NCBI GenBank assembly: GCA_016199325.1
Contig: JACQGW010000268.1
Span: forward strand, 1-8,977
Source: Chloroflexota bacterium
Lineage (GTDB): Bacteria > Chloroflexota > Dehalococcoidia > JACQGW01
Length of the DNA stretch: 8,977 nucleotides
Reading direction: 5' to 3'
Shown here: positions 1,104 to 8,977 of the stretch, piece after piece
Numbering within the stretch: the first letter of the stretch is position 1
How the letters are laid out: each line of letters starts with the position of its first letter
The notes under the pieces: generated by a model
What the model saw: only the letters and a program-made list of their open reading frames with translations
Database searches by the model: none
What the model was told of the DNA's origin: nothing
Translations under genes and position numbers: made by a program

Positions 1104-1823
1104 ATGGAACTACCGATTCACAACACGCAGGGCGAGGTGGTCGGCTCGCTGCCGCTCGACGAGACGGTTTTTGGGCTGCGGCCGCACGTCGCCATTATGC
1201 ATCAGGCGATGCTGCGCCAGCTCACCAACGCTCGCCAGGGCACGGTCAACACGCTGACCCGTGGCGAGGTCACCGGCGGCGGGCACAAGCCGTACAAGCA
1301 GAAGGGCACCGGACGCGCCCGGCAGGGCAGCCGGCGGGCGCCGCACTTCCGCGGCGGCGGCGTCGTCTTCGGCCCGCACCCGCGCCAGTTCGAGCATCGC
1401 ATGCCGCGGAAGATGCGGCAGGTCGCGCTGCGATCGGCCCTCTCGACCAAGGCGCAGGCCCAGGAGTTGATCGTCGTCGACGAGATCGTCTTCCCGGAGC
1501 CGCGCACCCGGGATCTGGCCGCCATCCTGAGCCGGTTGAACGTTCAGGGCTCGGCGCTCCTTGTCCTGGCCGACGGCGCGGTGAACGTGATCAAGTCCGC
1601 CCGGAACCTGGCGGGCATCGACATGCTGCCGGCCAACGCGCTGAACGTCGTCGCGCTGCTGAGACACCGCTATCTGGTCATGCCGGTGGCCGCCGTTCGG
1701 CAGATCGAGCAGTTGTACCGGCCTGCCGAAGCGGAGGTGACCGAAGAGGCGGCATCGGCGGCGGCCGGAGAGGCTGCCGAGGGAACGGATGAGACGACGA
1801 CAGCCGAGGTCACCGTCGAGTAG
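1104..1823 (+). CDS. rplD: 50S ribosomal protein L4 with acidic C-terminal tail
   Basis: The 239-residue protein has the L4 core signature: [20 protein letters not shown] followed by [20 protein letters not shown], the extended loop that lines the exit tunnel. L4 binds 23S rRNA domain I and in E. coli also represses the S10 operon through the mRNA leader. The core ends near residue 207 (EQLYRP). The last 32 residues are an Ala/Glu/Thr-rich tail with ten acidic residues and no Lys or Arg, likely disordered. This makes the protein longer than the roughly 200 residues of E. coli L4. The start is chosen because MELPIHN matches the usual N-terminus; the purine-rich upstream spacer has only a weak Shine-Dalgarno. 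A 167-nt palindromic spacer follows. Confidence 0.97.
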
Positions 1824-1990: not shown

Positions 1991-2284
1991 ATGCCAGAGC
2001 TGCACGTGTACCAGGTTTTGAAGCGGCCGCTCGTCACCGAGAAGGTGACCGCCAATCTTCCGCTGGGCAAGTACGCGTTCGAAGTGGACCCGGCGGCGAA
2101 CAAGCTGCAAATCAAGCAGGCCGTGGAAGTGGCGTTCAACGTGACCGTATCGGACGTCAACGTGCTCCGGATCCCGGGGAAGCTGCGGCGCGTCGGCAAG
2201 CACCGGGGGATGACCTCGGGGTACAAGAAGGCGATCGTGACGCTGCAACCGGGCGACAAGATCGAGCTGTTCGAGGGCGTGTAA
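1991..2284 (+). CDS. rplW: 50S ribosomal protein L23
   Basis: The 97-residue product has the family length. It starts with LHVYQVLKRPLVTEKVT, and its C-terminal part holds MTSGYKKAIVTLQPGDKIEL, both typical of bacterial L23. L23 sits at the polypeptide exit of the 50S subunit and is the docking site for trigger factor and signal recognition particle. The start ATG is preceded by AAAGG (1978-1982), 8 nt away. The gene is isolated on both sides by long spacers (167 and 155 nt), unlike all others here. The stop codon lies just 2 nt before the -35 box of a likely internal promoter. Confidence 0.97.
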   Translation: MPELHVYQVLKRPLVTEKVTANLPLGKYAFEVDPAANKLQIKQAVEVAFNVTVSDVNVLRIPGKLRRVGKHRGMTSGYKKAIVTLQPGDKIELFEGV

Positions 2285-2286
2285 CC

Positions 2287-2316
2287 TTGAAGACGCCGGC
2301 GCCCATGACGTATACT
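2287..2316 (+). promoter_or_regulatory. Sigma70-type internal promoter upstream of rplB
   Basis: The sequence shows TTGAAG (2287-2292) as a -35 element, an 18-nt spacer, and TATACT (2311-2316) as a -10 element. That is 4 of 6 and 5 of 6 matches to the sigma70 consensus. The region after the -10 (TTTCATATTG) is AT-rich and stands out in this GC-rich window. Transcription would start near 2322-2325, a few nt before the long hairpin at 2328-2407. It would give rplB and the downstream genes a transcript independent of tuf-rpsJ. The call rests on sequence match and position only. Confidence 0.65.
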
Positions 2317-2322
2317 TTCATA

Positions 2323-2439
2323 TTGCGAAAAGGTCGACGGCCCAAAATCGATTACGGCCGGCAGTGCGTGTCGGCTAGCTCGATAGGGGAGGGCCGGGCG
2401 ACCTTTTGCTGTGGGCGCTGAACGACAGGAGGATCGGGA
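2323..2439 (+). promoter_or_regulatory. Structured 5' leader of rplB, candidate r-protein autoregulatory RNA
   Basis: The stretch from 2328 to 2407 can fold as one long hairpin with four stacked helices. The first is AAAAGGTCG 2328-2336 with CGACCTTTT 2399-2407 (9 bp). The second is GGCCC 2339-2343 with GGGCC 2391-2395. The third is ATCGA 2347-2351 with TCGAT 2380-2384. The fourth is GCCGGC 2357-2362 with GTCGGC 2370-2375 (one G-U), closing a 7-nt loop AGTGCGT. The internal loops are asymmetric and partly purine-only: AC/GGG, AAA/AGGGGA and TTACG/TAGC. The RNA lies between a likely promoter and the strong Shine-Dalgarno of rplB. This is the usual layout of an r-protein leader, where a ribosomal protein binds its own mRNA. 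The binding protein is unknown; L2 or another product of the operon is the natural guess. The TTTT end could alternatively act as a weak terminator. Confidence 0.6.
2427..2432 (+). promoter_or_regulatory. Strong Shine-Dalgarno of rplB
   Basis: AGGAGG lies 7 nt before the rplB ATG. This is a full consensus site, stronger than most in the cluster, where many genes rely on partial sites and short spacers. It begins 19 nt after the 3' end of the leader hairpin, so control of its access is possible. Confidence 0.85.
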
Positions 2440-3264
2440 ATGCCGATCAAGCAGTTCAAGCCGACCTCCCCGGGCCGCCGGGGGATGATCGGCAACGCGT
2501 TTACGGAGATCACCAAGGACAAGCCCGAGCGGTCGCTGCTCGCCCCGTTGCGGCGGAAGGCGGGCCGGAACAACATGGGGCGGGTGACAACGCGCCATCG
2601 TGGCGGCGGCTCCAAGCGCATGTACCGGATCATCGACTTCAAGCGCGACAAGTTCGGGGTCCAGGGTCGGGTGGCCGCCATCGAATACGATCCGAATCGC
2701 TCGGCGCGGATTGCGCTGATCCAGTACAGCGACGGCGAGAAGCGCTACATCCTCGCGCCGCTCGGCCTCAAGGTGGGCGACGCCGTGCTGTCGGGCCCGC
2801 AGGCCGAGATTCGCCCCGGCCACGCGCTGCCGCTGCGGAACATCCCGACGGGCACGCTCATCCACAACATCGAGCTCCATGCAGGTCGGGGGGGGCAGAT
2901 GGTGCGAAGCGCTGGCGTGGCGGCCCAGCTCATGGCAAAAGAGGGGGACTACGCGACGCTCCGGCTGCCATCCGGCGAGATGCGCCGCGTGCGGGCCGAG
3001 TGTCTGGCCACGGTCGGGCAGGTGGGCAACGTCGAGCACGAGAACGTGAAGCTCGGCAAGGCCGGCAAGACCCGCCACCAGGGACGCCGGCCGACGGTGC
3101 GCGGCTCGGCGATGACGCCCCGGGACCATCCCCACGGGGGCGGCGAAGGCAAGGCGCCGATTGGCATGCCTGGCCCGAAGACGCCCTGGGGCAAGCCGGC
3201 GATGGGCTATAAGACGCGCCGCCGCAAGGTGAGCGACCGGCTGATCGTGAAGCGCCGGAAGTAG
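2440..3264 (+). CDS. rplB: 50S ribosomal protein L2
   Basis: The 274-residue protein has the normal length. The N-terminal OB-like half contains [20 protein letters not shown]. The C-terminal SH3-like half contains [20 protein letters not shown] (about residues 229-248) and a basic end [18 protein letters not shown]2 is needed for subunit association and for peptidyl transferase activity. His230 in DHPH corresponds to E. coli His229, implicated in activity, and is kept. The residues just before it, MTPRD, differ slightly from the common MNPVD. The gene has its own promoter-like sequence, structured leader and consensus Shine-Dalgarno, so it may begin a transcription unit that runs through the spc genes. 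Confidence 0.98.
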
Positions 3265-3952: not shown

Positions 3953-4627
3953 ATGGGACAGAAAGTTCATCCGATTGGCTTCCGGCTCGGCGTGATCCGC
4001 AGTTGGCAATCGCGCTGGTATGCCGACAAGGGGTATACCGACCTGCTCCAGGAAGACCTCCGGATCCGCCGGCACATCTTCAAGAAGCTCAGGGAAGCCG
4101 GGATCCCGCGGATCGAGATCGAGCGCGCGGCGAATCAGGTTTCGGTCATCGTGCATACGGCGAAGCCCGGGATCGTGATCGGCAAGGGAGGCGCCCGCGT
4201 CGACGAGCTGAAGAACGAGTTGGAGAAGCTCACCGGCAAGAAGGTTCGGTTGACGATCCAGGAGATCCGGCAGCCGGAGCTCGAGGCGACGCTGGTCGCC
4301 CGCAATATTGCGGAGCAGCTCGAAAAGCGCGTCGCCTACAAGCGAGCCATCAAGCAGGCCGTCGCGCGGGCCATGCAGCGCGGCGCCAAGGGCGTCAAGG
4401 TCATCGTCGCCGGCCGGCTGGCCGGCTCGGAGATGAGCCGGCGGGAGACCGAGAAGGCGGGCCAGGTGCCGCTGCAAACGCTGCGCGCCGACATCGACTT
4501 CGGCCAGGCCGAGGCGCATACGACGTTCGGGCGCATCGGCGTCAAGACCTGGATCTACAAGGGCGAGATCCTGCCGGAGCGCAAGGAGCGGCCGCCGCTG
4601 CCCATCCCCGCAGAAGTGGGGGCCTAG
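3953..4627 (+). CDS. rpsC: 30S ribosomal protein S3
   Basis: The 224-residue protein begins [18 protein letters not shown], the standard S3 start. A type II KH domain follows with the RNA-binding GKGG loop at residues 77-80. The C-terminal domain contains [20 protein letters not shown] and ends with a tail of basic and proline residues. S3 lines the mRNA entry channel of the 30S subunit and takes part in the helicase activity there. AGGAG at 3943-3947 is 5 nt before the ATG. The stop is 6 nt before rplP. Length is close to that of other bacterial S3 proteins. Confidence 0.98.
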
Positions 4628-4633
4628 CGAGCG

Positions 4634-5098
4634 ATGCTTCAGCCAAAGCGCGTCAAGTACCGGAAAACGCAGCGCGGGTCGATGGCCGGCAAAGCGACCC
4701 GCGGGACGAGCATCGCCTTCGGCGAGTTCGGCATCCAGGCGCTGGAGCCGGCCTGGATCGATGCCCGGCAGATCGAGGCCGCCCGCCGGGCCATTACCCA
4801 CCACCTCAAGCGTGGCGGCAAGGTCTGGATTCGGATTTTTCCTGACAAATCGGTCACGGCGAAGCCGGCGGAGACCCGTATGGGCAGCGGAAAGGGTGCG
4901 CCGGATCGCTGGGTCGCCATCGTCAAGCCCGGTCGCGTCCTGTTCGAGGTTGGCGGGGTCCGGGAGGACCTTGCTCGGGAGGCGCTTCGCCTGGCCGCGC
5001 ACAAGCTGCCCATCGAGACCAGGTTCGTCCTTCGCACGGTGGAAGCCGGCGGGGCCGTCGAAGGCGAGCCGGTCGAAGTTGCGGAGGGTGAAGCATGA
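4634..5098 (+). CDS. rplP: 50S ribosomal protein L16 with short acidic tail
   Basis: The 154-residue protein starts [19 protein letters not shown]. It contains [38 protein letters not shown] and [20 protein letters not shown], all typical of L16. L16 sits near the A-site and P-site tRNA elbows and is added late in 50S assembly. Arg82 in TRMGSGKG matches E. coli Arg81, the residue hydroxylated by YcfD/RoxA. The family core ends near residue 136; the last 18 or so residues are Glu/Gly/Val-rich and acidic. The codons of this tail also carry the GGAGGG site (5083-5088) of rpmC. The gene is 6 nt after rpsC, with no clear Shine-Dalgarno, so coupling is likely. Its end overlaps rpmC by 4 nt (ATGA). 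Confidence 0.98.
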
Positions 5099-8104: not shown

Positions 8105-8473
8105 ATGTTCAAGCCCGTCGACACGCGCGCGGCCCGGCAACGCCGCCATCGGCGCGTCCGCGCCAGGATCAGCGGCACGGCCGGTCGGCCGCGCCTGAAC
8201 GTCTTTCGCAGCCTTCAACACGTGTATGCCCAGGTGATCGATGACGACCGGGGCCACACCCTCGTCGCGGCGTCCAGCCTGGACCCGGAGCTCCGCAGTC
8301 AGCTCGCCGCCGGCAAGAAGCAGGATCAGGCCGTGCTTGTCGGCCGGCTGGTCGCCGAGCGAGCCCGGGCCGCCGGCATTGAGGCCGTGGTGTTCGACCG
8401 CGGCGGCTATTTGTTCCATGGTCGCGTCAAATCGCTGGCCGACGCCGCCCGCGAGGCGGGGCTGAAGTTCTAA
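8105..8473 (+). CDS. rplR: 50S ribosomal protein L18
   Basis: The 122-residue protein has the L18 signature: [35 protein letters not shown], and near the C-terminus [20 protein letters not shown] with AAREAGLKF at the end. L18 binds 5S rRNA with L5 in the central protuberance. The N-terminus is rich in Arg, as usual for the rRNA-binding tail. AGGGAG (8092-8097) overlaps the rplF stop and lies 7 nt before the ATG. Instead of running straight into rpsE, the gene is followed by a 94-nt repeat-filled spacer. Confidence 0.97.
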
Positions 8474-8567
8474 CGGGGGTCGGCAGTCGAGAGTCGGCAG
8501 TCGAGGGTCGGGAGACGGACTGCCGACCGCCGACTCTGGACCGCCGACTCGTAGGATGGAGTCACAC
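8474..8567. repeat. Tandem plus inverted repeat spacer between rplR and rpsE
   Basis: Two 14-bp units, GTCGGCAGTCGAGA at 8479-8492 and GTCGGCAGTCGAGG at 8493-8506, are followed by a partial third (GTCGGGAG, 8507-8514). The complement follows at once. GACTGCCGAC (8518-8527) pairs perfectly with GTCGGCAGTC at 8479-8488 or 8493-8502, GCCGACTCT (8529-8537) pairs with AGAGTCGGC (8490-8498), and GCCGACTC recurs at 8543-8550. The RNA could fold into competing hairpins. The last 17 nt hold the rpsE Shine-Dalgarno (AGGA 8553-8556 and GGAG 8558-8561). No promoter, terminator U-tract or gene is seen. It looks like a simple palindromic repeat insertion, different in sequence from the one before rplW. Confidence 0.75.
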
Positions 8568-8977
8568 ATGCCAAGAATTCAACCAGGTGCGCTTGCGCTC
8601 TCCGAGAAGGTTGTCCAGGTCAACCGGGTGGCTAAGGTCGTCAAGGGCGGACGGCGCTTCAGTTTTAGCGCGGTGGTCGTCGCCGGCGATGGCGCCGGCC
8701 ACGTCGGCGTCGGGCTGGGCAAGGCGAACGAAGTGCCCGAGGCGATTCGCAAGGGAGTCGAGGACGCCAAGAAGCACCTCATCGAAGTGCCGATGGTCGA
8801 TACGACGATCCCCCATGCGATCGTCGGCGAGTACGGAGCGGCGCGGGTGATTCTCAAGCCGGGCGTCCCCGGCACCGGCATCATCGCCGGCGGCGGCGTC
8901 CGGGCGGTGCTCGAATCCGCGGGCGTTCGGGACGTGGTGACGAAGTCGCTCGGCAGCTCGAACCCGGTCAACGTGAC
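8568..8977 (+). CDS. rpsE: 30S ribosomal protein S5, N-terminal part (3' end outside window)
   Basis: The visible 136 codons start [20 protein letters not shown]. They contain [40 protein letters not shown] and [19 protein letters not shown] with [20 protein letters not shown]. This covers the double-stranded RNA-binding-like N-terminal domain and most of the C-terminal domain of S5. S5 lies at the mRNA entry side of the 30S subunit and affects decoding accuracy. GGAG (8558-8561) lies 6 nt before the ATG. The sequence stops mid-codon after NPVNV, so the last few tens of residues are missing only because the window ends. Confidence 0.97.

Follow-up and report, generated by a model that had tools for sequence, protein, structure and literature searches.

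The closest described systems to the element considered here are leader RNAs of the S10 gene cluster, namely the E. coli S10 leader, which is bound by L4, and the S10-Clostridia family (RF03136). Stabilising stem-loops of the ompA type stand at the 5' end of bacterial mRNAs, and our element is like them in its predicted 5'-terminal placement. Passages of PMC10931766 describe the control of the S10 operon by L4 and state that the E. coli-like mechanism lacks wide conservation, even in gamma-proteobacteria. A leader in front of rplB is also of a described kind, as parts of PMC7247131 present the L2 leader of Alphaproteobacteria (RF03142; Eckert and Weinberg 2020) as a borderline case whose ligand was assigned by a closest-gene rule. 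How the synthesis of large r-protein clusters is balanced is mostly unknown outside the well-studied bacterial groups, and no title on an S10 or rplB leader in Chloroflexi was found in searches of open-licence papers.

The window, that is the whole 8,977-nt stretch of DNA analysed here, covers the S10-spc cluster, beginning at the end of tuf and running through rpsE. Ten gene names were assigned by Pfam, while the remaining ones were presumed from the usual gene order. EF-Tu and S10 were confirmed by Pfam and the gap between tuf and rpsJ is 6 nt, as an earlier note on this DNA had claimed, leaving no room for a leader before rpsJ, as it had also argued. In this respect the window differs from both the E. 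coli and the RF03136 arrangements, and RF03136 was absent from the window at E values up to 5 and from positions 2270-2450 at E values up to 10. In 10 of the 18 loci scanned, that family was located about 2.1-2.4 kb before rplB, where we expect rpsJ to begin. The L2 protein of the window is closest to genomes labelled Chloroflexi and is 76-77% identical to those of G001, G016, G015, G020 and G165 alike, so that the nearest accessible relatives are distant; L2 and L23 similarity suggests that the window belongs to the class of G001. By L23, relatives with 81% and 77% identity (P0002 and P0003) exist. The features around the rplW-rplB spacer are the following:

1991 to 2284, plus strand: rplW (L23), the gene 5' of the spacer, PF00276
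2285 to 2439, plus strand: rplW-rplB spacer, 155 nt, second longest of the window's 19 junctions
2287 to 2316, plus strand: sigma-70-type promoter-like site TTGAAG-N18-TATACT, one found against 0.1 expected in 1800-2500
2297 to 2420, plus strand: predicted outer helix P0, 10 bp, 2297-2306 with 2411-2420
2328 to 2407, plus strand: rod-shaped hairpin P1-P4 with asymmetric internal loops, from the fold of 2320-2442
2427 to 2432, plus strand: Shine-Dalgarno sequence AGGAGG of rplB
2432 to 2448, plus strand: predicted 6-bp hairpin GATCGG/CCGATC with the rplB AUG within its 5-nt loop
2440 to 3264, plus strand: rplB (L2), the gene 3' of the spacer, PF00181 and PF03947

The predicted fold of 2320-2442 places the rod in four helices, P1 (2328-2336 with 2399-2407, 9 bp), P2 (2338-2343 with 2391-2396, 6 bp), P3 (2347-2351 with 2380-2384, 5 bp) and P4 (2356-2363 with 2369-2376, 8 bp), separated by asymmetric internal loops of 1x2, 3x6 and 4x3 and capped by an apical loop of 5 nt. 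The four-helix rod and its asymmetric loops, both described in the earlier note, were therefore recovered, while the dimensions given there (9, 5, 5 and 6 bp with a 7-nt loop) differed slightly from those of the fold. The fold of 2320-2442 returned a z of -2.54, with 2 of 200 shuffles as good, and -2.43 in a repeat run (5 of 300). The rod alone reached -4.65 (0 of 300 shuffles), a value obtained with bounds chosen post hoc. Extending the fold upstream gave -3.48 for 2285-2442 (0 of 200 shuffles as good) and -2.70 for 2285-2439, better than 296 of 300 shuffles with 4 as good. The mean over 222 sliding windows of the contig was -0.41; the lowest values fell on palindromes at about 1841-1963 and 8441-8603, followed by 7161 in rpsH and then by 2321. 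Judged against shuffled sequences, the hairpin predicted at 2328-2407 is real, beyond chance. Folding the minus strand of 2320-2442 gave a good result too (z -3.4, 1 of 300 shuffles), so structure alone cannot fix the sense strand. A small ORF spanning the rod (2305-2420, ATG to TGA), seen by eye, lacks a Shine-Dalgarno sequence and was set aside.

The rod ends at 2407 and the AGGAGG stands at 2427-2432, in agreement with the distance of 19 nt previously reported. In four folds running into rplB the AUG was unpaired and the Shine-Dalgarno sequence mostly so, the exceptions being its last base and, in the shortest fold, also its first two bases. When the fold was stopped at the AUG (2285-2442), four Shine-Dalgarno bases (2429-2432) paired with 2285-2288. 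Nine of the ten P0 pairs were listed in the long read-through fold, with probabilities of 0.63-0.99. Neither P0 nor the hairpin at 2432-2448 had been mentioned in the earlier note. Since the 5' arm of P0 (2297-2306) precedes the putative start near 2323, P0 would form only in read-through transcripts from upstream, in which the rod is predicted to be enclosed by P0 as part of a larger fold.

The earlier note had placed the beginning of the rod within a few nt of a predicted transcription start, and a plausible promoter does lie directly upstream, at 2287-2316; the start would fall near 2323, about 5 nt before the rod. A strict scan (at least 4/6 and at least 5/6 hexamer matches, spacing 16-18) of 120 S10-spc spacers from 29 operons returned 8 forward sites and 1 reverse site against 0.95 expected from shuffles, and such sites are thus in excess over chance. 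Six of the forward sites stand before rplD, one between rplP and rpmC (G018), and one is the window site before rplB, whose score is the lowest of the 8 (4/6 and 5/6). The six sites in front of rplD belong to two sets of relatives and are conserved inside each set, a result that lends credit to the scan. The window hexamers differ by one base from the TTGACG-18-TATACT of G016. The promoter at 2287-2316 is probably real, and whether the rod is a 5' UTR of rplB depends on its use.

Spacers between rplW and rplB were collected from 78 of 80 genome loci, two having no rplW match, and further ones from 27 genomes of the class and from 30 loci of a search of 400 genomes of the phylum. A covariance model of the rod (R1), built from a single sequence and hence rough, gave no match at E<1 outside the window in 92 other loci (93 sources with the window, 445 kb). 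Within the window three further weak matches were returned, the best of which (4672-4704, 33 nt, compact, E 0.019) lies inside rplP and was taken as chance. Against 29 genomes of the class, 14 matches occurred in 10 genomes, the best at only E 0.05, on contig C258 of G030, whose S10 locus is on C315. The same model was run against the 23S rRNA locus of G011 for mimicry and gave only weak matches, the best two (E 0.013 and 0.023) just outside the rRNA and the best inside it, on the rRNA strand, at E 2.4; this candidate was dropped.

Conservation of the hairpin in close relatives, on which the earlier note had made its proposal depend, is thus largely contradicted by the absence of any relative of the hairpin from the 92 other loci and 29 genomes, the nearest relatives being distant (L2 77%). 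In G015 and G020, as close by L2 as G001 and G016, the rplW-rplB spacers are 7 and 8 nt long. G001 and G016, two members of one family, have spacers of 138 and 120 nt with long hairpins (z -1.5 and -4.7, respectively), each single copy in its own genome, which show no match to each other although the L2 proteins are 87% identical. Aligning the spacers of the window and of G016 with MAFFT gave nothing meaningful, and the alignment was discarded. With no detectable relative the rod has no covariation behind it, and, the nearest accessible relatives being distant (77% identity in L2), it may be a leader peculiar to this lineage.

Scanning the window with Rfam gave nothing above gathering, in line with the earlier view that no known leader class is recognised here. 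In a permissive scan of the spacer, RF03142 was the only r-protein leader family listed, with 10.4 bits and, on another stretch, 8.2 bits, whereas its gathering score is 37.8. The E-values were 2.4 and 9.9 over all families, or about 0.0006 to 0.002 when RF03142 is counted as a single family (2.4 or 9.9 divided by 4227 families). Like the rod, the RF03142 leader sits before rplB; unlike a member, the window match scores far under gathering. As the alignment takes in only a minor part of the rod and its pairing spans the rplB start codon, the match does not amount to membership.

The structure of the spacer was compared with that of other junctions in the window, in 27 genomes of the class and in G165, taken from the phylum search; of the 29 genomes available from the class of G001, two had no L23 match. 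Spacers of at least 60 nt occurred at rplW-rplB in 6 of 29 cases, at rplE-rpsZ in 15 of 27, at rpsJ-rplC in 9 of 27 and at rpsS-rplV in 9 of 28, with others elsewhere. A z below -3 was found for 39 of 120 S10-spc spacers (50-320 nt), spread over 13 of the 19 junctions, and for 4 of 7 rplW-rplB spacers (window, G016, G028 and G021). The control set, drawn from 36 stretches in 16 of the surveyed genomes, consisted of ordinary co-directional spacers 50-170 nt long, defined by simple ORF calls of at least 240 nt and not by annotation, and only 1 of 104 fell below -3. Under equal length limits the S10-spc figure was 35 of 113 against the same 1 of 104, and within the same 16 genomes 15 of 66 against 1 of 104 (Fisher 2.6e-6). 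The S10-spc spacers of these Chloroflexota (L151-L178 and the window) are far more structured than ordinary co-directional ones. A further survey found z below -3 in 35 of 117 spacers from other Chloroflexota loci, a group including one locus under the title Gracilibacteria and three labelled just bacterium, and in 13 of 76 from Firmicutes loci; this survey used rplF and rpsE queries shifted by a single base, and the loci mostly end before these genes.

The window has three long spacers, each of them structured (z -4.8, -3.0 and -5.4). Between rplD and rplW a long palindrome occupies 1838-1967. A 15-base word of it, searched with up to one mismatch, matches 18 times in G028, where the reversed control word matches 3 times, and 6 times in five other genomes (29 searched), which makes this palindrome one of a dispersed kind. 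The second palindrome, with inner repeats, lies at 8474-8548 in the rplR-rpsE spacer, the one with z -5.4. Among the relatives, G021 has hairpin spacers with sequence in common, and one hairpin spacer of G024 matches other stretches of its own genome. A second place in the same S10 locus was found only for spacers of G021 and for two of G027; apparent copies in G028 and G015 were rejected, the matches being palindromes matching themselves. The rplN-rplX spacers of G016 (L151) and G001 (L152) carry long hairpins with a shared stretch at the base of the stem and a differing tip, and a word of the 24-bp hairpin of G001 occurs nowhere else in its genome. From these sequence comparisons, part of the predicted S10-spc spacer structure is made of repeated palindromes and part is not. 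In L163 (G027, contig C74, 108000-125000) the rpsJ-rplC spacer has a second copy in the same locus (98.6% over 70 nt), a portion of the rplW-rplB spacer is also copied within the locus, and another, partial L23 match lies close by, a pattern that would suit a partial duplication of the S10 cluster.

Leader candidates were observed in front of another gene of the cluster. In four relatives a promoter-like sequence, TTGAGC-17-TATAAT, is followed before rplD by a structured element (model R2), located as follows:

L160 (G009), 9460 to 9515, minus strand: rplD leader candidate
L162 (G011), 1233 to 1304, plus strand: rplD leader candidate
L164 (G012), 9670 to 9725, minus strand: rplD leader candidate
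L172 (G010), 4434 to 4489, minus strand: rplD leader candidate

The R2 element covers 56 model positions ending at the Shine-Dalgarno sequence and contains 19 pairs, 2 of which are changed on both sides; this number was reached by 78 of 500 column shuffles and is only suggestive, while the changes stand out against slid partners. The model found one place per genome in 4 of the 13 genomes of the order. In G001 and G016 the region before rplD shows a conserved promoter and a 12-bp hairpin (model R3). Neither R2 nor R3 matched the window spacer with filters off, and an Rfam scan of 17 loci, three of the four R2 genomes included, returned no family at gathering score. Like the window, these units combine an internal promoter-like site, a short structured leader and a Shine-Dalgarno sequence inside the S10 cluster; they differ from it in gene, sequence and structure. 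Putative internal promoter-leader units inside the S10 cluster thus have precedent in this group, and their occurrence before rplD, the L4 gene, in six relatives suggests that relocated S10 control has precedent at another gene. Between rplD and rplW of the R2 loci, a hairpin rich in G+C, with a run of three or four T behind it, was seen at L160:8766-8824 (minus), L162:1946-1999 (plus), L164:8979-9034 (minus) and L172:3745-3797 (minus); a terminator after rplD is only a guess, as the terminator scan did not report the hairpin in the two loci tested.

We lean, tentatively and short of calling it probable, towards the rod being a lineage-specific structured 5' UTR of an internal promoter that drives rplB and the downstream genes. 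Transcription from the 2287-2316 promoter would yield a second message for rplB and its downstream genes, with a start near 2323 and the rod almost at its 5' end; beyond the rod would come a Shine-Dalgarno sequence that is mostly open and an AUG in a hairpin loop. The most likely role of the rod would be to tune the amount of rplB-distal message, protecting the 5' end against decay and leaving the initiation region accessible, and read-through transcripts would carry the same rod within the extra outer helix. In favour of this reading are the fold better than shuffles, the promoter-like site directly upstream and the excess of such sites, the rod beginning about 5 nt past the putative start, the unpaired AUG and mostly unpaired Shine-Dalgarno sequence in folds running into rplB, and the unusual structure of long S10-spc spacers in this group. 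We infer the use of the promoter, the stabilisation of the message by the rod and any response to an r-protein. Several results speak against this 5' UTR: the rod has no detectable relative, the window promoter scores lowest of the 8 sites, the fold stopping at the AUG pairs four Shine-Dalgarno bases, the minus strand folds well, and G015 and G020, with 7- and 8-nt spacers, do without a rod. If promoter and rod are real, the S10-spc cluster would be split in two units, with L2 onward set apart from L3, L4 and L23. Autoregulation through L2, L4 or L23 is possible. In its full form, an r-protein leader would have excess L2, L4 or L23 bind the rod and lower translation or transcription of rplB and the downstream genes, replacing the S10 leader as the earlier note had suggested. 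The position, the promoter-like site, the strong asymmetric rod, the missing room before rpsJ and the four relatives with a leader before rplD (2 of 19 pairs changed on both sides) agree with such a leader, and rplB leaders are a kind described in parts of PMC7247131. We nevertheless regard it as rather unlikely, as the rod is not conserved and the spacers of G015 and G020 measure only 7-8 nt, no Rfam match exceeds gathering, no significant likeness to the G011 23S rRNA appeared, the Shine-Dalgarno sequence is not hidden in folds running into rplB, and many other junctions also have structured spacers.

About as likely as the r-protein leader is an inserted, since decayed palindromic element, or some other neutral hairpin that serves no function itself. 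This is a real alternative because the other two long spacers of the window carry palindromes, one of them dispersed (18 against 3 word matches in G028); the shared hairpin spacers of G021, the repeated spacer of G024 and the lack of positional conservation point the same way. The asymmetric loops of the rod, in which no tandem words were seen, are at odds with this origin, as are the single-copy rplW-rplB spacers of G001 and G016, the single-copy rplN-rplX word of G001 and the failure to find any copy of the rod beyond weak matches in the window, the 92 other loci and the 29 genomes. A processing or attenuation hairpin, either an RNase III cut site or a weak terminator with an AAAA/TTTT-flanked stem that tunes transcription from rplW into rplB, would suit the long double-stranded rod, whose 3' arm ends in CGACCTTTTG with AAAA on the 5' side. 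We consider this quite improbable: there are only four T, paired inside the stem, internal loops are unusual for a terminator, and an intrinsic terminator scan of 1800-2500 did not report the rod. The boldest reading takes S10-spc control to be rewired in one Chloroflexota group, with no rpsJ leader and internal promoter-leader units at genes that differ between lineages (rplD in six relatives, rplB here), the rod being an r-protein-responsive leader of a new structural type for the rplB-distal part only; we hold it to be unlikely.

Apart from the fate of the rod, the survey is of wider use, as the gaps of this cluster are far more structured than ordinary ones and conserved leader candidates can be picked from them, before rplD and, in some Clostridia, before rplB. 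In front of the Clostridia rplB a conserved two-hairpin RNA was observed at L047:2930-2990, L050:2928-2985, L054:2930-2984, L060:2920-2984, L062:2924-2984 and L076:2930-2986, in loci titled Anaerofilum, Fournierella, Gemmiger, Faecalibacterium (twice) and Ruthenibacterium. In these 6 sequences 4 of 10 pairs are changed on both sides, and no Rfam match above gathering was found there (4 of the 6 loci scanned). This two-hairpin RNA is a better rplB leader candidate than the rod of the window. Other conserved-looking hairpin elements occur between rplW and rplB of Clostridia at L028:2929-3000, L033:2464-2533, L073:2933-3000 and L075:2932-3000, and a second such set at L030:2752-2810, L031:2936-3000, L063:2942-3000 and L077:2631-2694; both sets are perhaps related to the two-hairpin RNA.
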